This document shows, piece after piece, positions 5,542 through 44,724 of a stretch of 64,000 nt of DNA. Position 1 is the first letter of the stretch, and the number at the start of each line of letters is the position of its first letter. A model generated the notes under the pieces. The model ran no database searches. It was given only the letters and a program-made list of their open reading frames with translations, and was not told the origin of the DNA. Source of the DNA: Arthrobacter sp. zg-Y20 (GTDB lineage Bacteria; Actinomycetota; Actinomycetes; Actinomycetales; Micrococcaceae); NCBI RefSeq assembly GCF_030142075.1, contig NZ_CP126241.1:1612001-1676000 (forward strand). Direction: 5' to 3'. The position numbers were made by a program, and so were the translations under genes.

Positions 5542-6174
5542 CTAGCTGCGGCGCCGGCCGGGGAGCGGAGTGACGCCGTCGGGCAGCGGCGGCAGTCCCG
5601 CGAAGGTGCACACCATGTCGGACCAGGCCTCCAGGTGCGACTGCACGTCGGCGTCGGCCGGGGTCCAGGAGGCCCGGAGTTCAATGTCGATCGAGTCGTC
5701 GCGGCCTTCCAGCGTCCCGTAGCTCTCCGACAGCACGCGGGTGGCTGTTCCGCCGGCCATGGAATAGCGGGCGCCGTGCTGCTCCAGCGCCTCGACCAGC
5801 CAGGTCCAGGCCACTGAGCCCAGGAGCTGGTCATTGCCCATGTCCGGTTCCAGCTCGGCCCGGATGTACGTGACGATACGGAAAGTGCCGTTCCAGACCG
5901 GTGAACCGGCCGGATCGTGCAGCAGGATGAACCGGCCCGTGGCCAGTTCCAGCTGCTCGGGTATCTGGAGGGCGGCGGGGCCGTGCAGGCTGGTGGGTCC
6001 GGCGGGGCCGGGGGCCAGCACTTCGGCGCCGAGGGAAACAGCGTACGGGGCCAGGCGGGTGGGTGCCGGGATCTCCTCGAGCTTCAGCTCCGCCCGGCAC
6101 GCGGCCCGGCGCATGGCGCCGAGGGCCGTCAGGAAATCCGGGGGCACCTGGGACAGGTCACCTATTGCACTCAC
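5542..6174 (-). CDS. DUF3000 domain-containing protein
   Basis: 210 residues matching the actinobacterial DUF3000 family over its whole length. Features are a helical start (PPDFLTALGAMRRAACRAEL), the LHDPAGSPVWNGTFRIVTYI strand region, and the end DIELRASWTPADADVQSHLE. The family has no assigned activity but is usually found next to rnd, as here. ATG 6174 opens the likely two-gene transcript. Confidence 0.85.
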   Translation of the reverse strand: MSAIGDLSQVPPDFLTALGAMRRAACRAELKLEEIPAPTRLAPYAVSLGAEVLAPGPAGPTSLHGPAALQIPEQLELATGRFILLHDPAGSPVWNGTFRIVTYIRAELEPDMGNDQLLGSVAWTWLVEALEQHGARYSMAGGTATRVLSESYGTLEGRDDSIDIELRASWTPADADVQSHLEAWSDMVCTFAGLPPLPDGVTPLPGRRRS

Positions 6175-14451: not shown

Positions 14452-15051
14452 TCACATGAGTCCGGCGGCCCAGCGCAGCCGCAGGCTTTCCTCCAGTTCC
14501 TGCTCCGCGATCCGCCGTTCAATGGCGGTCAGCTGTTCCTCCAGCCGCGGAATCCACCGGTTCTCCACGGCGCGCTGCCGGGTGCGCGTGGCGGCCAGTT
14601 CCTCCGAGACCAGCAGCAGCGCCCGCTGGCTCGCGGCCGCGGCTACGGCAGCTTCCAACGCAGTCCGGTGTGCCGCCGCAGCGTAGGCCAATGCGGAGCT
14701 GCCCCCGGCCGGCGGCGCCGCAGGAACCGTGCAGGACGCATCTTCGGGATAGGAAATACCCATCGCCCCGCCCCAGCGGACCGTGGCCAGCGCGGTGTCC
14801 GACGGCGCTGCCTCCGCCAGACGGTCAGCCCCGTCCAGCGCCGTGGTCCGCCGCAGCCACACGGCAGCTTCCCGGGCCAGTTCCTCCCAGGCCAGCCGCG
14901 CGGCGTCGGCCCTTTCTGCCAGCCCGTCGATGGAACGCTGCAAGATGCGCTGCTTGCGGTCCAGCAGTTCCGCACCGCGCCGGGCGGTGGCCAGCCGGCG
15001 CTGAACTTCGGCACGCTCTGCCCGGCTTCCCCCGGACCGGAACCCGCTCAC
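14452..15051 (-). CDS. atpD: V/A-type ATPase subunit D (central rotor shaft)
   Basis: 199 residues, almost all helical. The N- and C-terminal long helices (AEVQRRLATARRGAELLDRK; RQRAVENRWIPRLEEQLTAI) form the antiparallel coiled coil typical of subunit D. The short middle section, GGAMGISYPEDASC, corresponds to the region facing the membrane ring. It is the last gene of the operon, 30 bp after subunit B, matching the A-B-D order found generally. Length is in the family range of about 200-215. Confidence 0.85.
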   Translation of the reverse strand: MSGFRSGGSRAERAEVQRRLATARRGAELLDRKQRILQRSIDGLAERADAARLAWEELAREAAVWLRRTTALDGADRLAEAAPSDTALATVRWGGAMGISYPEDASCTVPAAPPAGGSSALAYAAAAHRTALEAAVAAAASQRALLLVSEELAATRTRQRAVENRWIPRLEEQLTAIERRIAEQELEESLRLRWAAGLM

Positions 15052-15081
15052 GGCTGCACTCCGCTCACGGCTGCGCCCCGC

Positions 15082-16494
15082 TCACAACCGGGCCCCGTCC
15101 ACGGCCCCGGGCAGGTACCGGTCCAGGAACTCGCCGGAAAGCATGGTCAGTTCCCGCCGGGGCAGCAGGGACAGTGCCTGCCAGGCCAGATCCAGGGTCT
15201 GCTCCAAGGTGCGCAACTCGTCGCGGCCCTGGTGGAGCAGTTCCTTTTCCACCACGGAGCGGAACTCTATGTAGGCCTTGTCGGTCTCACTCAGTGCGGC
15301 CGTTCCCACCAGTTCAGCGAGCTCGGACGCGGACCGGGCCCGGGCCATCGCGGACAGGACCTGCGCGGCCACGTCGAGGTGGTCCTCCCGGGTCCGGCCT
15401 TTACCCGCACCGCTGCGCATGAGCCGGGACAGTGAGGAGAGCACATCCACGGGCGGGTAGATCCCGCGGGCGTCGATGTCGCCGTCGAGCACTATCTGCC
15501 CCTCGGTGATGTAGCCGGTAAGGTCCGGCACCGGGTGGGTGATGTCTCCGGCGGGCATGGTCAGCACCGGAACAATGGTGACCGAGCCTTCCCGTCCCCG
15601 CACCCGGCCGCAGCGTTCGTACAGGGTGGCCAGGTCGCTGTAGAGGTAGCCCGGGTACCCGCGCCGGGCCGGGATTTCCCGCCGGGCAGCGGAGACCTCG
15701 CGGACCGCCTCCGCATAGCTGGTCATGTCCGACATCACCACCAGCACGTCGGCGCCGTCGTCGTAGGCCAGCGACTCGGCAAGGGTCAGTGCAATCCGGG
15801 GCGTGAGGATGCGTTCAATCACCGGATCGTCGGCGGCGTTGAGCAGCAGCACCAGTTCTCCGGCGGACGAACGTTCCTCCAGTCGGTCCCGAATGTAGGC
15901 GATGTCTGCGTGAGTCATGCCCATCGCGGCGAACACCACCCGGAAGGCACGGCCGGAGGAGGTGGTGGCCTGCGCGGCGATCTGCGTGGCCAGGGTCAGG
16001 TGCGGCAGCCCCGGGATGGAGAAGATAGGCAGCTTCTGCCCGCGGACCAGGGTGGTGAGGGCATCCACCACGGAGACCCCGGTGATCACCGGATCCTGCG
16101 GCGGTTCCCGGTAGACGGGGTTCAGCGGCCAGCCGCCGACAGGAGAGGAATGCTCAGCGGTCACTGGAGGGCCGCCGTCGAGCGGTTCCCCGCGGCCGTT
16201 GCAGACCCGGCCCAGCCAGTCCGTGCCCACCGGCACCGCGAGGGGCCGGCCCTGGAAGCGGACTTCCACCCCGCCCAGGGACATGCCCTCGGTGCCCTCC
16301 AAGACCTGCAGAGTGGTCTCGTCGCCGTCGATCTCCAGAACCAGGGCATGGCGCTCGGCCCCGCCGTCCACTGAAACGTTGGCGAACTCGTCCCAGCCCA
16401 CGCCCTGGGTGTCCCCAAGGACCAGCAAGGGGCCGCGTAGCTCGCGCACGTCGCTGTGGCCCAGCCGAGCCGCGTGGCTGCTCTCGTTAGCCAT
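15082..16494 (-). CDS. atpB: V/A-type ATPase subunit B (non-catalytic)
   Basis: 470 residues from ATG 16494, which overlaps the end of subunit A by 8 bp. A longer in-frame extension upstream is only the complement of the subunit A tail. It lacks a P-loop, as expected, with IFSIPGLPHLTLATQIAAQA at that position. Other family blocks are VFAAMGMTHADIAYIRDRLE, the MTSYAEAVREVSAARREIPA stretch carrying the conserved Arg-rich interface, and GYPGYLYSDLATLYERCGRV. It forms the A3B3 hexamer with subunit A. Confidence 0.92.
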   Translation of the reverse strand: MANESSHAARLGHSDVRELRGPLLVLGDTQGVGWDEFANVSVDGGAERHALVLEIDGDETTLQVLEGTEGMSLGGVEVRFQGRPLAVPVGTDWLGRVCNGRGEPLDGGPPVTAEHSSPVGGWPLNPVYREPPQDPVITGVSVVDALTTLVRGQKLPIFSIPGLPHLTLATQIAAQATTSSGRAFRVVFAAMGMTHADIAYIRDRLEERSSAGELVLLLNAADDPVIERILTPRIALTLAESLAYDDGADVLVVMSDMTSYAEAVREVSAARREIPARRGYPGYLYSDLATLYERCGRVRGREGSVTIVPVLTMPAGDITHPVPDLTGYITEGQIVLDGDIDARGIYPPVDVLSSLSRLMRSGAGKGRTREDHLDVAAQVLSAMARARSASELAELVGTAALSETDKAYIEFRSVVEKELLHQGRDELRTLEQTLDLAWQALSLLPRRELTMLSGEFLDRYLPGAVDGARL

Positions 16495-18454
16495 GGGCGT
16501 CTCCCGCCGTTGGTTGGGGTTCCGGGGCCGGTTCCGGCGCCGGGGACGGTGCGGAGGCGGGCACGGCGTCCGCGGGGGAGGCCGGGGCCTGCTCCAGGTC
16601 CGCCGCCAACTGCCGGACAAACGCCCGGCCCCGCTGCTGCACGCCTTCGGCGTCCGTGGGACCGGTGTCCTCCCGCAGCCGCAGCACCGGGGTGAAGTCA
16701 TAACGGTCGACGTCGGCCGGCGGCACTCCGCGTCCCACCAGCGTCTGGCAGGTGTCCACCACGTCCAGGACTGTTTGCAGCAGGGCGGCCCCCTTGGCTT
16801 CGGAGCTGTAGCCGTCATTGGGGCTCAGTGCGTTCTGCAGCAGCACTCCGTCGCGCAGCAGGCGCCCGCCCAGCAGCACCATCTGCTCGTGTCCGGGCAG
16901 GGAACCGGCCCCGATAATCTCGGCCAGCGCGGTCAGCCGGTCCGCTTCGGCCAGGAGCAGGGAAGCCTGCGCCCGCCGCTGCGCCCACTGCGGGTCCCCG
17001 TGGGCGGAGTACCAGCGGCCCAGCGACTCGGCGTCGCGGGAGAAGGAGCCGCGCCAGCTGACCGCGGGATAGTGCCGGGAGTAGGCCAGGTCCCGGTCCA
17101 GCAGCCACAGGGACCGGACAAAACGCTGGGTGCCGGTGGTGACCGGTTCGCTCATGTCCCCGCCGGGAGGGGAGACCGCGCCGATCACGGTGACCGACGC
17201 CGTCGCCCCGCCCAGGGTGCGTACCCGGGCGGCCCGCTCGTAGAAGGCGGCGAGCTCACTGGCCAGGGACGCGGGGTAGCCTTCCTCGGCGGGCAGGTCC
17301 CCGTTGCGGTTGGCGAACTCGCGCAGGGCTTCGGCCCAGCGGGAGGTGGAGTCGGCAATCACCACCGCGTCGTAGCCCATGTCGCGGAAGAACTCGGCCA
17401 CGGTCACGCCGGTGGCAATGGAAGCTTCCCGGGCCATCATGGGCATATTGGAGGTGTTGGCAATGATGACGGTCCGGTCAATGAGTTTGCCGCCGGTCCG
17501 CGGGTCATCGAGCCCGGAGAGCCCGTCCAGCACGTCGGCCATCTCGTTGCCGCGCTCGCCGCAGCCCACATAGACAATCACATCTGCGTCGGACCACTTG
17601 GCAATCTGCTGCAGGGTCAGGGTCTTGCCCGTGCCGAACCCGCCGGGCACCGCGGCTGCTGATCCGCGGGGCAGGGGGAAGAGCAGGTCAAGGACCCGTT
17701 GGCCGGTCTGCAGCGGCACCACGTCGGTGATGCGCTCGCCGAAGGGACGCGGGGTGTGCACCGGCCACCGCTGGGCCAGCGGCACCTCCACCGTGCCGAT
17801 CCGGGCCACGGCTTCCAGCGGGCGGACCTTCCCCTCGGCCAGCCAAGTCACTTCCCCGGACACGGCAGGGGGTGCCAGCACCCGGAATTCCACCGTTCCG
17901 GCCTCGGGCACGGTGCCCAGCACCTGCCCGCCGGTCACGGTCTCGCCCACGGCCACCGACGGCGCGAACTCCCACTGTGTGTCCAGCACCGCCGGATCCT
18001 CGGCCGAGCCCTGCCGCTGCTGGGTCAGCCAGAGCGGGGCCGAGGAAAGCGGGCGCAGCAGCCCGTCAAAGACCGTGCCCAGCAGGCCCGGTCCCAGCAG
18101 TCCCGCGAGCTGGTGGCCGGTGCGCACCGCGGGGTCGCCGGCTTTCAGCCCGCCGGTGTATTCGTAGGCCTGCAGGGTGGCTTCGTCACCGTTGATGGAT
18201 ACGGCCTGGGCGGCAATGCCGTCCGGACCGATGTTGACCACCTCGAGCATGGACAGGCCGGGGAGTCCGCTGATTTCCACCAGCGGTCCGCTGACCCGGG
18301 TGATCCGGCCGCTGTCCGCCGGACGGGAAGCGCCGGCGGCCGGCACCGGAGCGGCCGGCCCGGGTGTTGCGGGCCCGGGTGTTGCGGGCCCGGGTGTTGC
18401 CGCCTCCGTTGTTAACGCTTCCGATGCAGCCGGCTTCCTTACCCGTCGTCCCAT
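16487..18454 (-). CDS. atpA: V/A-type ATPase subunit A (catalytic)
   Basis: 655 residues. The P-loop is GGFGTGKT (271-278), followed by the catalytic-site block YVGCGERGNEMADVL (about 295-309) and DSTSRWAEALREF. The non-homologous insert that separates V/A from F-type subunits is present between about 120 and 235. Two unusual low-complexity tails occur: an N-terminal stretch of about 45 residues with three ATPGP repeats, and a Pro/Ala/Glu-rich C-terminal tail. Overlaps subunit E by 16 bp and subunit B by 8 bp. Confidence 0.93.
   Translation of the reverse strand: MGRRVRKPAASEALTTEAATPGPATPGPATPGPAAPVPAAGASRPADSGRITRVSGPLVEISGLPGLSMLEVVNIGPDGIAAQAVSINGDEATLQAYEYTGGLKAGDPAVRTGHQLAGLLGPGLLGTVFDGLLRPLSSAPLWLTQQRQGSAEDPAVLDTQWEFAPSVAVGETVTGGQVLGTVPEAGTVEFRVLAPPAVSGEVTWLAEGKVRPLEAVARIGTVEVPLAQRWPVHTPRPFGERITDVVPLQTGQRVLDLLFPLPRGSAAAVPGGFGTGKTLTLQQIAKWSDADVIVYVGCGERGNEMADVLDGLSGLDDPRTGGKLIDRTVIIANTSNMPMMAREASIATGVTVAEFFRDMGYDAVVIADSTSRWAEALREFANRNGDLPAEEGYPASLASELAAFYERAARVRTLGGATASVTVIGAVSPPGGDMSEPVTTGTQRFVRSLWLLDRDLAYSRHYPAVSWRGSFSRDAESLGRWYSAHGDPQWAQRRAQASLLLAEADRLTALAEIIGAGSLPGHEQMVLLGGRLLRDGVLLQNALSPNDGYSSEAKGAALLQTVLDVVDTCQTLVGRGVPPADVDRYDFTPVLRLREDTGPTDAEGVQQRGRAFVRQLAADLEQAPASPADAVPASAPSPAPEPAPEPQPTAGDAHG
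18357..18400. repeat. three-copy 15-bp tandem repeat inside the subunit A gene
   Basis: The unit GGGCCCGGGTGTTGC occurs three times head to tail and encodes the Ala-Thr-Pro-Gly-Pro repeats near the N terminus of subunit A. In-frame copy changes would alter tail length without breaking the gene. Confidence 0.85.
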
Positions 18455-18962
18455 AACCTGCGCACCTCCCCGGCGTGGTCATCCATGGCCTGCAGGGCCA
18501 GAGTGGGCAGCGACAGGTCCAGGCGCCTGGAACCGGCACTGCCGGTCACGCCGCCCTTGTAGCTCTCCGTCACAGAGGCCATGGGTCCCAGCAGCCGGTC
18601 CGCCTCGGCGGTGAGCCTGCGGAGGATTTGCGGATAGCGCGGGTCCCGGCGGAGTTCACGGGCCTGCTCCAGCACCTGTGCCTGCAGGAGGGAGCGCAGG
18701 TGTTCCTGCTCGGCCAGCACGGTCCGGCGTGCCTGCCGCCGGGCCCGGGCGGAGGACGCTGCCGCCTCGGCGCGTGCGGCCTCGGCCCCGTCCCGCCGTG
18801 CCGCGGCCAGGATGCCGTCAGCTTCCGCCTGTGCCCGGGACATGGTGTCCGTTGCCTGCTGCCGCGCCGCCGCGATTGTCCGGGCTGCGGCAGTATCCGC
18901 GTCCTGCGCCAGCGCCTGCCGCACTGGTGCCAGGGCGGCGTCTGCCCCCTGCGGCAGCCGGC

Positions 18963-18966
<4 letters not shown>
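18439..18966 (-). CDS. atpE: V/A-type ATPase subunit E (peripheral stalk)
   Basis: 175 residues. The N-terminal 110 form a long Ala/Arg/Glu coiled coil (TIAAARQQATDTMSRAQAEA, RAEAAASSARARRQARR), and a short C-terminal globular part follows (YPQILRRLTAEADRLLG, ALQAMDDHAGEVRRL). This matches subunit E, which links the stator to the hexamer. It overlaps both neighbours (F by 4 bp, A by 16 bp). On sequence alone it could be confused with other stalk proteins, but position supports E. Confidence 0.78.
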
Positions 18967-20920
<1,954 letters not shown>

Positions 20921-20934
<14 letters not shown>

Positions 20935-21862
20935 CAAGCACCTCGCTTCCGCCGGTTCCGGCAGCCGCGGCGGCCAGGGCGGCCCGGACGCGCCAGGCAT
21001 CGGCTGCCAGTACGGCCATGGCGCCCAGCACCACGTCGGGTCCGGGCAGGCCGGCCCGGAGCAGGCCGAATCCGTCGGTTTCCACCTGCGCGGCCAGCTG
21101 CGCTTCGGCCCGCCAGAGGCCCTGCGGGTCCTGTGTGGCGCTTAGGGCCCGTCCGGCGGCCGGGCTCAGGGACACCGCGAGTTCGGGCAGCGAGGCGGCA
21201 TCAGTCCATCCGGTGCCCAGCAAGGGCCGCAGCAGGGAGACCAGCCGGTCCGGGGGGCGGGTCCGGTCCACCAGGAGCAGCCGGGCGGCCAGCAGGACAG
21301 CGGCGGACACTGCCCACGGCCGGGCACCTGCGGCGGCGCCGGCCAGCCGGCGCAGCCACACGGCGGTGAGGATGTCCGGGAGCTGGGCTGCCGTCCCGGG
21401 GTCGCCCCAGGGGCTGGCGGCCAGCATGGCGTGCAGTGTTTCGGGCGATTCGGCGGTGCGCAGCCGGGGCCAGGCCGTAGCCAGACCGCCCAGATCGTAG
21501 AGCGGAGCAGGCGCCATGTCGGTTCCCGCGGGCAAAGTGCCGGTGTGCAGGGCAGCAGCCAGGGCGATGATGTTGTCCGCTTCGAAGCGGGCGGCGGCGG
21601 CCCGGATCAGCGGGGTTCCGCCGGCGGGAAGCCAGCCGGCCAGGACGCGCAGCTGCCACAGGACGGTGCGTCGAGTGGCGTGCTGGGCATCGCCCAGGGA
21701 GCGGGCTGCGGTGAGGCCGGGGCCGTACACAGAGTCGGCCAGGGCCTCGGCGGCGGTGGGAAGACTGGCCATCGCGGCAACTTCCCGGCAGGTACCGGCA
21801 CCGACCCGGCGCTGGGCCATGGACCGTGCCCGGACGGAGGCCGCCACCCAGTCCGCGCGCAT
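20921..21862 (-). CDS. atpC: V/A-type ATPase subunit C (d-like, rotor socket)
   Basis: 313 residues, all helical, with repeats of Ala/Leu-rich helices like the AC39/d-subunit family that caps the K ring. Examples are the opening ADWVAASVRARSMAQRRVG, then RFEADNIIALAAALHTGTLP (family R.E.DN...L), and WRVRAALAAAA at the end. The DNIIALAAAL motif is the best evidence; the rest is assigned from position between the stalk gene and subunit I. Overlaps the stalk gene by 1 bp. Confidence 0.8.
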
Positions 21863-22305
21863 TAGCTGCTGTCCGTTCCGCGCCCGAGCAAATCCGAGAC
21901 GAGGTCGGCCACAATCGCGCCGGCCAGTTCGGGTATCCGGGATTCGCCCCGGCGGCGCAGCTCGGCTGCCTGTTCGCGGGCCCGGCCGAGCATGTCTTCA
22001 TCTGCCCGGGCAGCGTCGGCGGATACCCGGGCGGCGGCGTCGGCCCGCACCGCTGCACTGTCCATGTGCGCCTGCTCCACCAGGGTCGCGGCCTGGAGGC
22101 GGGCGGCAGCCACGGTGGATCCGGCGTCGGCTTCGGCCCTGGCCGTCAACTGCTGCCCGGCCGCGATCGCGGAGTCCAGGGCCTCGAAGACGGGAATCAG
22201 TTCGGCGGCCGGTCCCTGGTCATCCACGGCCGGAACCCCGGCGGGCCCGGCCGGACCGGGTGCACCTACGGGGCGGAAACGGTCCAGCAGGCTGTTGCGT
22301 GCCAT
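21862..22305 (-). CDS. V/A-type ATPase peripheral stalk subunit (G/H-like)
   Basis: 147 residues. A Pro/Ala-rich start is followed by a single long coiled coil from about 35 to 125 (ALDSAIAAGQQLTARAEADA; RVSADAARADEDMLGRAREQ) and a short end (IVADLVSDLLG). This fits the NtpF/AhaH-type stalk helix that pairs with subunit E. A strong AGGGAGGTG lies before ATG 22305. CCTCC upstream of it (22323-22327 on the plus strand) could pair with GGAGG and mask the site. Confidence 0.7.
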   Translation of the reverse strand: MARNSLLDRFRPVGAPGPAGPAGVPAVDDQGPAAELIPVFEALDSAIAAGQQLTARAEADAGSTVAAARLQAATLVEQAHMDSAAVRADAAARVSADAARADEDMLGRAREQAAELRRRGESRIPELAGAIVADLVSDLLGRGTDSS

Positions 22306-22349
22306 GCGGCACCTCCCTGAGCGGAGGATGGGTGGACTGCTCGGGCGGG

Positions 22350-22670
22350 CTAGTCTCCGGTGGCCTCGGCCTCGGAGTCCTCTCCGTGCCGGACTATGTC
22401 GCCCTCGGTGAAGAGGATCCCTTGGGCTATTTCACGCCACAGGGGAGTGCGGCGGAGCAGGAACTCCAGTTCCATGCTGAAGTGCTTGAACTCTTCGCCG
22501 AGGGAATCAAGCATGATGGCCCGGGACTGGGCGTCGGGTTCAACGGCCATCCGCTGCACGTACCAGCCAATGGCTTCGGCTTCTTCACTGAGGCTGGCGC
22601 ACATGCGGGTAAAGGTGCGGGTTTCCGCGGGAAGTTCAGACGGCGGCTCATGGTACTGATCTGTGCCCAT
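22350..22670 (-). CDS. encapsulated-ferritin (EncFtn)-like protein
   Basis: 106 residues from ATG 22670. That start has AGGAG six bases upstream, whereas the ATG at 22676 touches the ribosome site. The sequence follows the EncFtn pattern closely: YHEPPSELPAETR, SLSEEAEAIGWYVQR, then GEEFKHFSMELEFLLRRTP and LF. Residues E30, E60 and H63 occupy the ferroxidase positions I recall as E32/E62/H65 in the Rhodospirillum rubrum protein, and E29, E32, W36 and Y37 match its metal-entry residues, all offset by two. EncFtn forms decamers oxidising Fe(II). The acidic tail lacks an encapsulin-targeting peptide. It is 44 bp upstream of the V-ATPase genes on the same strand. Confidence 0.8.
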   Translation of the reverse strand: MGTDQYHEPPSELPAETRTFTRMCASLSEEAEAIGWYVQRMAVEPDAQSRAIMLDSLGEEFKHFSMELEFLLRRTPLWREIAQGILFTEGDIVRHGEDSEAEATGD

Positions 22671-22781
22671 TTGCATCTCCTCAGGACCGGTGGTTCCGCA
22701 CCCTCTGAGCGGTGAGCGGAACGTTTCCCCCGTCCATCGAGGTTACGTTTGGGTCCGGCCGGAAACAATGGTCGGGCGGGT

Positions 22782-23330
22782 TCAGCGGCCCAACCGGGCG
22801 TAGGCGCCTGCAAAGTGGACGAGCGGGTCCGCCTCGTCGTCGGCGGACGCGCGCCGGCCCATGGATACCACTTCGCCCACGATGAGCAGGTGGGTGGCCG
22901 CCGTCGTCACCTGCGTGGTGCGTACCTCGAACCAGGCAACGGAGCCCTCAATCACGGCGGCGCCGGTTTCCGGTCCGCGGCCGTAGTCAACCTGGTTGAG
23001 CAGCCCCTCCAGGGGCGAGCCGGGGCTGGCGAGCCAGTTGGCGGTGCCGCGCAGACGTGCCGGCAGCAGGCTCAGGGCCCAGCTGCCGGCGTCGACCACT
23101 GCCTCTGCGATGCGGGCCTCGGCGTAGAGACTCACCAGCAGGGTGGGCGGGTCGTAGGAGACGGAGAGGAAACCGCTGACGGTGGCGGCATAGTCACGCC
23201 CGCGCAGCCGGGTGGAGACCACGCCGACGCCGGAGGCAATGTCCGCGCTCAGCTCCCGGTACCGGTTCGTTGCCTCGTCCGGGATGTCCGGCCCCTTTAC
23301 GGGGTCGGCCGGGAAAACTCCGTACTCCAA
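22782..23330 (-). CDS. flavin reductase family protein
   Basis: 182 residues, the flavin reductase-like split-barrel domain. Typical blocks are ELSADIASGVGVVSTRLRGR, AATVSGFLSVSYDPPTLLVS (family T..S..S.s.dPPl.lv), and HLLIVGEVVSMG near the end. Such proteins supply reduced FMN/FAD to monooxygenases or reduce other acceptors; the partner is unknown. It is the last of three same-strand genes with msrB (10-bp gap) and the gene at 23805. Confidence 0.85.
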   Translation of the reverse strand: MEYGVFPADPVKGPDIPDEATNRYRELSADIASGVGVVSTRLRGRDYAATVSGFLSVSYDPPTLLVSLYAEARIAEAVVDAGSWALSLLPARLRGTANWLASPGSPLEGLLNQVDYGRGPETGAAVIEGSVAWFEVRTTQVTTAATHLLIVGEVVSMGRRASADDEADPLVHFAGAYARLGR

Positions 23331-23340
23331 CGCCGGTCCT

Positions 23341-23790
23341 TTACGGTTCGGTGGTGCTGCCGGCGCCGTCGCCCGGTACCAGCTTCACCGAAATGGAGTT
23401 GATGCAGAACCGCTGGTCGGTGGGCGTATCAAAGCCTTCGCCCTCGAACAGGTGGCCCATGTGCGAGTCGCAGTTGGCGCAGCGGACCTCAATGCGGTCC
23501 ATGCCCATGCTGCGGTCGTGCAGGTAGCGGACCTTGCCCTCGGCCAGCGGGGCGAAGAAGGACGGCCACCCGCAGTGCGAATCGAACTTCTCGTTGCTGG
23601 TGAACAGGTCGCTGCCGCAGGCCCGGCACTGGTACACGCCGGCGGTCTTGGTGTCCCAGTATTCGCCGGTGTAGGGCCGTTCGGTGCCGGCCTTGCGCAG
23701 GACGGCGAATTCCTCGGGGGACAGTTCCTCGCGCCACTGCTCGTCGGACTTTTGCACCGGGATGGTTCCGGCGTTCTCTTCGGTAGTCAT
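23341..23790 (-). CDS. msrB: peptide-methionine (R)-S-oxide reductase
   Basis: 149 residues, reduces the R epimer of methionine sulfoxide in proteins. Zinc is held by two CxxC pairs (C55/C58 in YQCRACGSDLF and C104/C107 in RCANCDSHMGHLF). The catalytic cysteine is C129 in QRFCINSISVKL. GGWPSF and HLF, which line the active site, are present. Full length. It sits with the flavin reductase gene, consistent with an oxidative-damage role. Confidence 0.95.
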   Translation of the reverse strand: MTTEENAGTIPVQKSDEQWREELSPEEFAVLRKAGTERPYTGEYWDTKTAGVYQCRACGSDLFTSNEKFDSHCGWPSFFAPLAEGKVRYLHDRSMGMDRIEVRCANCDSHMGHLFEGEGFDTPTDQRFCINSISVKLVPGDGAGSTTEP

Positions 23791-37755: not shown

Positions 37756-37776
37756 CCGGCCTGAAAACCGGGGGAG

Positions 37777-37850
37777 AGCGGACGACGGGATTCGAACCCG
37801 CGACATCCACCTTGGCAAGGTGGTGCTCTAGCCAGCTGAGCTACGTCCGC
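37777..37850 (-). tRNA. tRNA-Gly (GCC)
   Basis: Full cloverleaf: acceptor GCGGACG/CGTCCGC, anticodon stem CCACC/GGTGG with loop TTGCCAA (anticodon GCC), and T arm with GGGTTCGAATCCC. No encoded CCA. Identical to the two other copies at 38002 and 38348. Confidence 0.97.
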
Positions 37851-37875
37851 AAATGTAGACAGTCGAAACTGTCCG

Positions 37876-37947
37876 TGCGCGATACTGGGATCGAACCAGT
37901 GACCTCTTCCGTGTCAGGGAAGCGCGCTACCGCTGCGCCAATCGCGC
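37876..37947 (-). tRNA. tRNA-Val (GAC)
   Basis: Acceptor GCGCGAT/ATCGCGC, anticodon stem CTTCC/GGAAG with loop CTGACAC (GAC), and T arm TGGTTCGATCCCA. No encoded CCA. Identical to the copy at 38103. Confidence 0.97.
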
Positions 37948-38001
37948 CCGGCTGCCCGGCCCGTTCAGGATTACTCCTGGAAAACCAAAGGCAGCAGGGA
38001 G

Positions 38002-38075
38002 AGCGGACGACGGGATTCGAACCCGCGACATCCACCTTGGCAAGGTGGTGCTCTAGCCAGCTGAGCTACGTCCGC
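38002..38075 (-). tRNA. tRNA-Gly (GCC), second copy
   Basis: Same 74-nt sequence as the copy at 37777, with anticodon GCC. Together with the following tRNA-Val it forms a second Gly-Val pair. Confidence 0.97.
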
Positions 38076-38102
38076 AAGAAAGCACTGAAAACAGTACTGT
38101 CG

Positions 38103-38174
38103 TGCGCGATACTGGGATCGAACCAGTGACCTCTTCCGTGTCAGGGAAGCGCGCTACCGCTGCGCCAATCGCGC
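38103..38174 (-). tRNA. tRNA-Val (GAC), second copy
   Basis: Same 72-nt sequence as the copy at 37876. The spacer to the neighbouring Gly gene differs from the first pair but also contains an ACTGT/ACAGT inverted repeat. Confidence 0.97.
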
Positions 38175-38203
38175 CCATAAATGGGTTTTGCTGCAATCCA
38201 CTG

Positions 38204-38277
38204 TGGAGGTGGGGACGGGATTCGAACCCGCGTATACGGCTTTGCAGGCCGCTGCCTCGCCTCTCGGCCACCCCACC
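38204..38277 (-). tRNA. tRNA-Cys (GCA)
   Basis: Acceptor GGTGGGG/CCCCACC, loop CTGCAAA (anticodon GCA), T arm GGGTTCGAATCCC, discriminator U. The 3' CCA is encoded in the DNA, unlike the Gly and Val copies around it. Confidence 0.96.
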
Positions 38278-38347
38278 GTAACCGCCGCGTGAAGCTTTGG
38301 CTGTCCGCCTCCGGGAGAACCAGGAGCGGCTTGTACAGTGACTTGCG

Positions 38348-38421
38348 AGCGGACGACGGGATTCGAACCCGCGACATCCACCTTGGCAAGGTGGTGCTCT
38401 AGCCAGCTGAGCTACGTCCGC
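38348..38421 (-). tRNA. tRNA-Gly (GCC), third copy
   Basis: Same sequence as the other Gly copies and the first gene of the leftward cluster, about 80 bp after its promoter. Confidence 0.97.
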
Positions 38422-38500
38422 ATTGAAGAAGTTAGGGGTTATTTGCCTCGGAACGCTTGCGCTTTCCGCGGCGAACCCCCGCTTTCCAACGAAGAAAAAC

Positions 38501-38528
38501 TCTATAGGACGTTTGCGGGTTCGTCCAA
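38501..38528 (-). promoter_or_regulatory. promoter of the leftward tRNA cluster
   Basis: On the minus strand, TTGGAC (38528-38523) and TATAGA (38506-38501) are spaced 16 bp, a good sigma-70-type pair. Transcription would begin about 70 nt before tRNA-Gly. Confidence 0.6.
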
Positions 38529-38562
38529 TCGGCACTGGTTGCGGTGCGGATCCTGAGACGGT

Positions 38563-38591
38563 TTGGACTCCCGCCGGATCTGGGCTAGGCT
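38563..38591 (+). promoter_or_regulatory. promoter of tRNA-Val (CAC)
   Basis: TTGGAC (38563-38568) and TAGGCT (38586-38591) with a 17-bp spacer. It is divergent from the leftward tRNA promoter and leaves an A-rich leader of about 80 nt before the tRNA. Confidence 0.6.
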
Positions 38592-38676
38592 CTTTACTCG
38601 TTGGAGTGCTTACGGGCACACCGGCAGGCAACAGAACAAGAAATAGACAAGAAGTAGAAAAAAAACAGCAAAAGCT

Positions 38677-38751
38677 GGGCGATTGGCGCAGTGGTAGCGC
38701 GCTTCGTTCACACCGAAGAGGTCACTGGTTCGAACCCAGTATCGCCCACCA
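38677..38751 (+). tRNA. tRNA-Val (CAC)
   Basis: Acceptor GGGCGAT/ATCGCCC, anticodon stem CTTCG/CGAAG with loop TTCACAC (CAC), T arm TGGTTCGAACCCA, discriminator A, and an encoded CCA at 38749-38751. It decodes GUG, complementing the GAC isoacceptor. Confidence 0.97.
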
Positions 38752-44370: not shown

Positions 44371-44382
44371 TTCCTAACAAAA

Positions 44383-44524
44383 CGTGCTCCGGGGTCGGTG
44401 TAATTCCGAACCGGCGGTTATAGTCCGCGACCCGCACTGCTGAACCGAGTTTCTCGGGGAAGCGGTTCGGTTGAATCGGTGAAATTCCGATACCGACAGT
44501 TAAAGTCTGGATGGGAGAAGCACG
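44383..44524 (+). ncRNA. FMN riboswitch (RFN element)
   Basis: The closing stem pairs CGTGCTCC with the GAGAAGCACG end. The conserved arms are GGTCGGTGTAATTCCGAACC, GGCGGTTATAGTCCGCGACC, and GATGGGAGAAGCACG. This is a near-complete RFN consensus. It lies 200 nt upstream of ribM and should repress the rib operon when FMN is plentiful. A possible expression-platform hairpin is GGGGACCCG-TTT-CGGGATCCCC (44564-44585); no U tract follows, so control may be at another step. Confidence 0.95.
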
Positions 44525-44724
44525 TGCAGTTTGTTGTTCCGCCGGCTTTGCCGACCCTGAAAAGGGGACCCGTTTCGGGATCCCCGCGCAAGGGTCCGTT
44601 CCGGGCCCCACTGAGCGGGTCCGGCGCGGATTTTGGCCACATTCGGGTTGTCCTGCCGGCGACGCACCCACTGCCGTACGCCTGTCGTACCCTCCGGAGC
44701 AGCAGCTTAGGGATAAAGGACGAC

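Follow-up and report, generated by a model that had tools for sequence, protein, structure and literature searches.

The window analysed here is a 64,000-nucleotide stretch of the genome of Arthrobacter sp. zg-Y20 (contig NZ_CP126241.1, positions 1,612,001 to 1,676,000), and it carries a short gene for a ferritin-like protein of the EncFtn family lying 44 bp ahead of nine genes for a V/A-type ATPase, all on the same strand, in the order G-C-I-K-F-E-A-B-D (Table 1). The protein has no tail of the kind that marks encapsulin-linked EncFtns, and its gene probably leads the transcript of the rotary ATPase behind it. A first-pass annotation, made by a model from the letters of this DNA, had described nine overlapping ATPase genes at that distance from EncFtn; the number, the strand and the 44 bp stand, and most of the genes do overlap, the departure being B and D, which are 30 bp apart.

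The EncFtn protein and its metal site

The first-pass annotation had recognised the EncFtn family by its metal-site residues, and the profile search that it called for bears the assignment out: the protein matches the EncFtn-like Pfam family PF22277 at E=5.8e-19 (68.1 bits against a cut-off of 27). It also matches Rru_A0973, the Rhodospirillum rubrum EncFtn of PDB 5da5, at E=2.3e-13 with no gaps across residues 4-98, and NE0167 of Nitrosomonas europaea (PDB 3k6c) at E=5.1e-11. The result that speaks against the family call comes from the NCBIfam cargo model TIGR04535, which gives the protein 74 bits, under its cut-off of 125. That cut-off is non-discriminating here, because an encapsulin-linked, tail-bearing relative also fails it, at 84.6 bits.

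The open reading frame is confirmed at 22350-22676 on the minus strand. Its upstream ATG, at 22676, is an alternative start, and the ATG at 22670, which gives a protein of 106 residues, is the likely one, since the Shine-Dalgarno spacing and a conserved second ATG in relatives both fit it. Counted from the ATG at 22676, the protein keeps E31, E32, E34, Y39, E62 and H65, which have ferroxidase or entry-site roles in R. rubrum EncFtn according to PMC5012862 and bear the same numbers there as published, and W38 is likewise present. The first-pass annotation had found the metal site intact with its numbering shifted by two, and the shift comes down to which of the two ATGs is taken as the start. 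All of these residues, W38 included, are invariant in 26/26 EncFtn copies from the genus.

EncFtn in the genus is under strong purifying selection in its tail-less form, and this is a firmer result than its link to the ATPase. The median pairwise ratio of nonsynonymous to synonymous divergence (dN/dS) among the 26 copies is 0.054 (264 pairs with dS between 0.15 and 1.5), the lowest median of nine locus genes compared (MsrB 0.095, subunit B 0.094, subunit G 0.222), these ratios being rough because synonymous divergence is high. In one of the 26 (G208, locus L091, near position 6010), the EncFtn match begins at residue 14 and the start codon lies in a different frame from the others, which reflects either a frameshift or an assembly error.

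The EncFtn and ATPase genes within Arthrobacter

Twenty-nine genomes of the genus were compared, the named relatives being A. zhaoxinii, A. gandavensis, A. koreensis, A. luteolus, A. citreus and others. EncFtn is present in 26, the ATPase D subunit in 27 and both in 24, and wherever the two occur together (24/24 genomes) EncFtn immediately precedes subunit G in the same orientation. Two genomes (G100 and G183) have EncFtn without the ATPase, and three of the 27 ATPase-bearing genomes (G058, G197 and G211) have the ATPase without an intact EncFtn. In these last, the stretch just before subunit G, bounded on its other side by MsrB or the flavin reductase, shows EncFtn at three steps of decay while the ATPase stays: a stub reading frame matching EncFtn residues 1-33 in G211 (L080), a short remnant, seen by eye, in G197 (L079), and a coding sequence that is gone altogether in G058 (L047). 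By a tree built from three proteins of the neighbourhood, which is a locus tree and not a species tree, EncFtn loss takes three changes, all forced by well-supported branches, and ATPase loss takes two, one of them forced; the pair has thus separated at least four times (EncFtn at least three, ATPase at least one).

Since either gene has disappeared while its partner stayed, it is unlikely that EncFtn and the ATPase are directly linked in function. Such a link can be pictured in two related ways. In one, a shell-free EncFtn ring, made first from the shared transcript, would have been co-opted by the V/A-ATPase in Arthrobacter, physically or as a regulator, so that iron or oxygen status sets pump assembly or activity; in the other, EncFtn would attach to the V/A-ATPase or to its assembly, with a structural role or as a sensor of iron or oxygen, its ten-membered ring facing the proteolipid ring. 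The first-gene position and the 24/24 synteny speak for such a partner, but 3/27 ATPase-bearing genomes lack an intact EncFtn, and close tail-less relatives do without an adjoining V-ATPase in 19 of the 31 tail-less named loci described below. We consider both forms very unlikely.

The genes may instead be joined through expression. A promoter-like element stands ahead of the unit, as CCATTGTTT-15-CGTAACCTCGA in the window and in the form CCRTTGTNN-15/16-CGTANNNTCGA in 29/29 genus loci; a looser form would be expected in 0.36 of 29 loci by first-order shuffles, and exact matches number one in the 64-kb window (this one) and none in 100 shuffles. Where intact EncFtn is missing (three genomes), the element persists in front of subunit G, and where the ATPase is missing (two genomes) it still precedes EncFtn. 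Between the EncFtn stop and the G start lie 4-146 bp (median 45.5, 24 genomes); none of these 24 gaps holds an element of the conserved form, nor did a simple scan pick out a terminator in any of them. Because the element stays ahead of the unit in 29/29 loci, single-loss genomes included, the V/A-ATPase transcript probably begins with EncFtn, the promoter function of the element and the co-transcription both being inferred. The upstream element and the empty gaps together make probable what the first-pass annotation had proposed, namely that EncFtn leads the operon.

A simpler alternative is that the genes are only neighbours, with EncFtn transcribed alone, the ATPase promoter in the gap and the synteny confined to one genus. 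This would suit an adjacency limited to the genus, the persistence of each gene without the other, and a gap that reaches 146 bp in one genome; it fits poorly with 24 of 24 gaps that lack both a conserved-form element and a scanned terminator, at a median of 45.5 bp, and with the retention of the upstream element in 3/3 genomes without intact EncFtn. We judge it unlikely, if the most serious competitor to a shared transcript.

Some observations weigh against that shared transcript. The motif comes out of the very 29 loci in which it is counted, and these loci are relatives of one another, so the 29/29 count speaks of conservation and not of significance. A generic sigma-70 scan of the window did not list the element. 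In one subgroup of the genus, moreover, the -10-like box falls within the left arm of a strong terminator-like hairpin with T residues after it, and part of the element block in this subgroup could be kept as an msrB terminator. The hairpin of G032 (L042), the only one folded, has a predicted energy of -37 kcal/mol (z=-4.8), similar sequence is visible by eye elsewhere in the subgroup, and there seems to be an overlap between the end of msrB and the start of EncFtn. Such a hairpin would halt only transcripts derived from msrB, because a transcript born at the putative promoter would lack the left arm. Two separate checks were negative: no structured leader RNA was detected in the presumed 5' untranslated region in the window (z=0.02), and the same promoter-like form precedes none of four V-ATPase operons of other genera, one of which has a different TTG-17-TA match.

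As for the ATPase itself, subunits I, K, A, B and D score over curated Pfam cut-offs, C and E have weak matches, G weakly resembles an F-type B subunit, and F (77 residues) has no match in Pfam or NCBIfam; G and F are named by position and size because their family matches are weak or lacking. The enzyme encoded at 14452-22305 is divergent, its D subunit scoring 94.5 bits where most other actinobacterial matches in the phylum sample reach about 140-200. Two ATP-synt_ab matches lie 2.7 kb apart near 2.42 Mb of the genome and are taken for an F-type synthase, so the V/A enzyme is probably a second rotary ATPase. The flavin reductase-like gene and MsrB, upstream, are regarded as lying outside the EncFtn-ATPase unit.

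Table 1. Features at the EncFtn-ATPase locus, in window coordinates
Feature	Position	Strand	Evidence
MsrB (SelR), upstream	23341..23790	(-)	PF01641 E=1.4e-48; 29/29 genus loci
Flavin reductase-like gene, upstream	22782..23330	(-)	PF01613 E=2.2e-25; 20/29 genus loci
Conserved promoter-like element (TTGTTT, 17 bp, TAACCT)	22737..22771	(-)	genus conservation; putative function
EncFtn-family ferritin-like protein, tail-less, 106 aa	22350..22670	(-)	PF22277, PDB 5da5, invariant metal-site residues
Subunit G/H, peripheral stalk (by position)	21862..22305	(-)	weak NCBIfam F-type B subunit match E=5e-4; order, size
Subunit C	20921..21862	(-)	PF01992 E=2e-4, under cut-off; order
Subunit I, short, 451 aa (longest open reading frame)	19645..21000	(-)	PF01496 E=3.9e-19; NF004430 E=2e-38, under cut-off
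Proteolipid K	19193..19648	(-)	PF00137 E=2.8e-16; V-type c/K structures match residues 83-150
Putative subunit F, 77 aa (by position)	18963..19196	(-)	no family match; kept in genus
Subunit E	18439..18966	(-)	NF002424 E=4e-4, under cut-off; order
Catalytic subunit A	16487..18454	(-)	NF003220 634.6 bits, cut-off 470; PDB 3m4y E=1.2e-160
Subunit B, start set at MANESSHAARLGH within a longer open reading frame	15082..16494	(-)	NF003235 596.6 bits, cut-off 349
Subunit D	14452..15051	(-)	PF01813 E=8e-27

Elsewhere in the window are an FMN riboswitch at 44381-44526 on the plus strand (Rfam RF00050, 100.3 bits) and seven tRNA genes at 37776-38751, namely Gly, Val, Gly, Val, Cys and Gly on the minus strand and Val on the plus strand.

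Targeting tail and encapsulin shell

The first-pass annotation had noted that the window holds no encapsulin, and a search of the whole genome, a single contig of 3.53 Mb that is 99.99% complete, agrees: family-1 encapsulin (PF04454) is absent from it, with a positive control. The family-2 model (PF19307) gave no match either, yet its control was silent as well. A second sample of 197 genomes was drawn from the family, 12 from the genus and 185 from outside it; encapsulin is present in 33/197 of these and in 0/12 of the genus genomes, the search having covered 12 of the 29 genomes of the genus.

The C-terminus tells the same story, again as the first-pass annotation had read it. Encapsulin-linked relatives end ...SLGIGSLK..., whereas the window protein ends ...EGDIVRHGEDSEAEATGD and has no SLGIGSLK-like C-terminal targeting peptide; its 106 residues close with the short C-terminus ...HGEDSEAEATGD, as in the tail-less EncFtn class that a 2024 review calls s-FLP. 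By eye against Table 2 of PMC11202242, it does not have the putative C-terminal sequence LFTD(E/N)KPIAHE of the Nitrosomonas group and carries LFTEGDIVRHGE in that place.

Among 80 named loci, the best 80 of 405 relatives, tail and neighbouring encapsulin are concordant in 78 (47 with both, 31 with neither); the two discordant loci are L145, which has a tail and for which encapsulin was not found, and L141, which is cut by a contig end. The 36 loci of the family sample divide into 20 with tail and encapsulin, 15 with neither, and one (L074) with an encapsulin and no recognised tail, whose reading frame passes through masked or unknown bases; the two sets overlap in genomes and their counts are not additive. 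Other genera contribute 26 EncFtn loci to the family sample, of which 21 have an encapsulin match nearby and the five without one are tail-less. Tail-less carriers among the named loci belong to Micrococcaceae and Microbacteriaceae, together with metagenome-assembled genomes, one of them filed under Chloroflexota. Three Micrococcaceae genomes (G028, G098 and G115) each hold two copies, one with a tail and next to an encapsulin, the other tail-less and at a different site. A single origin of the tail-less form is unsupported: an 86-row tree needs six state changes, and its well-supported branches force two, the most it resolves because it has too few columns.

It has to be asked whether EncFtn is still encapsulated here, in an unrecognised or family-2 shell that it enters through an atypical C-terminus. 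The review leaves the encapsulation of short FLPs undecided (PMC11202242), and the silent family-2 control leaves some room for a shell of that kind, but family-1 encapsulin is absent from this genome, with a positive control, and from 12/12 genus genomes of the family sample, and the three genomes with two copies hold the encapsulin-linked tailed copy apart from the tail-less one. We give an undetected shell very little credence.

The pair beyond the genus and its likely role

Outside the genus there is no sign of an association between EncFtn and the V-ATPase, because of the 185 family genomes 23 have EncFtn and five have V-ATPase D (one of these by a weak match), and the single genome with both has them unlinked. 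In this sample EncFtn (26 loci) never adjoins a V-ATPase, and the V-ATPase (five loci) never adjoins EncFtn. In 396 genomes of the phylum, an EncFtn-like match was found in 72, D in 93 and both in 40, and among these 40 the window's own genome is the only one with both matches on one contig. The EncFtn matches in the phylum are in many cases weak (apart from the window's own genome, 10 combine a D match with an EncFtn score above 60 bits), and linkage in this sample could be missed because most assemblies are fragmented. The neighbourhood comparison called for in the first-pass annotation thus has two outcomes, the pair being adjacent in 24/24 genomes of the genus that hold both and not found linked in the family and phylum samples outside it.

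Nor did a shared neighbour of tail-less EncFtns emerge, as no gene cluster recurs in at least 4 of 22 loci within 6 kb on rough gene calls, the count leaving out EncFtn itself, reading frames overlapping it and genus-internal flanks. Two Cryobacterium loci (L113 and L139) have a similar gene next downstream of a tail-less EncFtn, which from its look by eye we take to be a cation exchanger of the CaCA type.

The first-pass annotation had offered a functional reason for the pairing, in which iron oxidation by EncFtn yields protons and the co-made V/A-ATPase exports them. The shared unit and the intact ferroxidase residues are in keeping with this, but the separate losses (EncFtn at least three times, ATPase at least once), the absence of a linked pair outside the genus in these samples and the small estimated proton yield led us to set proton coupling aside as the leading explanation. 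Taking as general values some 1e6 iron atoms in a cell, 2 H+ released for each and a cytoplasm that buffers close to 6e7 H+ per pH unit in every fL, oxidising all the iron of a cell would shift the pH by about 0.03 unit, as an order of magnitude, so a dedicated pump would be unneeded. Of all the explanations weighed here, we find proton export the hardest to believe.

We favour, with moderate confidence, a shell-independent EncFtn that detoxifies iron or oxidant and is encoded by the first gene of a transcript shared with the V/A-ATPase, with no working complex or proton coupling between them. By homology, EncFtn would assemble into an open ring of ten two-helix subunits, and the free ring may bind Fe2+ at its intact ferroxidase centre and oxidise it in the cytoplasm. 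It would in this way lower labile iron or consume oxidant, acting as a detoxifier and not as a store. The transcript would start at the conserved promoter at about 22745-22768 on the minus strand and continue into the nine V/A-ATPase genes, so EncFtn and the ATPase would be made under the same conditions, and the link between them would be one of expression and of shared locus history in one genus. The single protein with the ferritin domain PF00210 in the genome is Dps-like and encoded elsewhere (its NCBIfam Dps match is under the cut-off); it could, speculatively, accept the oxidised iron.

Dps, ferritin and bacterioferritin share with EncFtn the oxidation of Fe2+ at a di-iron site. They form cages, whereas EncFtn has two main helices and forms an open ring, as described in PMC5012862 and PMC11202242. 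According to PMC5012862 and PMC8346489, EncFtn alone has ferroxidase activity and does not mineralise iron, and the first of these describes iron storage by EncFtn as requiring the encapsulin shell. The encapsulin cargo class FLP-TP (R. rubrum 5da5, Haliangium ochraceum 5n5f) resembles the window protein across residues 4-98 and in the metal ligands, but the window protein is without the tail, and no encapsulin gene lies nearby or was found in the genome. Tail-less EncFtn is already known as a kind of protein: the s-FLP class, exemplified by NE0167 (PDB 3k6c), has the same EncFtn domain and no C-terminal targeting peptide, and was first classed as non-encapsulated, according to PMC11202242. 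The present set differs from it in being actinobacterial, with other C-termini, and in Arthrobacter it heads a V/A-ATPase unit. The ATPase, for its part, is homologous in A, B, D, K and I to the V/A-type enzymes of archaea, Thermus and Enterococcus and is a compact nine-gene set, but its F is without a match, its G, C and E match weakly, its I is short (451 residues) and a ferritin-like gene stands in front. A search of open-licence PMC papers returned none that reports EncFtn next to a V-type ATPase, and this setting at the head of an ATPase unit, like the scale of shell-free EncFtn among actinobacteria, seems to be new.

The genus thus keeps the ferroxidase residues of EncFtn under strong purifying selection while both shell and tail are missing, and the role of a shell-free EncFtn becomes testable in culturable bacteria. 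The three genomes without intact EncFtn and the two without the ATPase are natural knock-outs. If the co-transcription holds true, iron or oxidant handling in these organisms would be tied to the expression of a second rotary ATPase.

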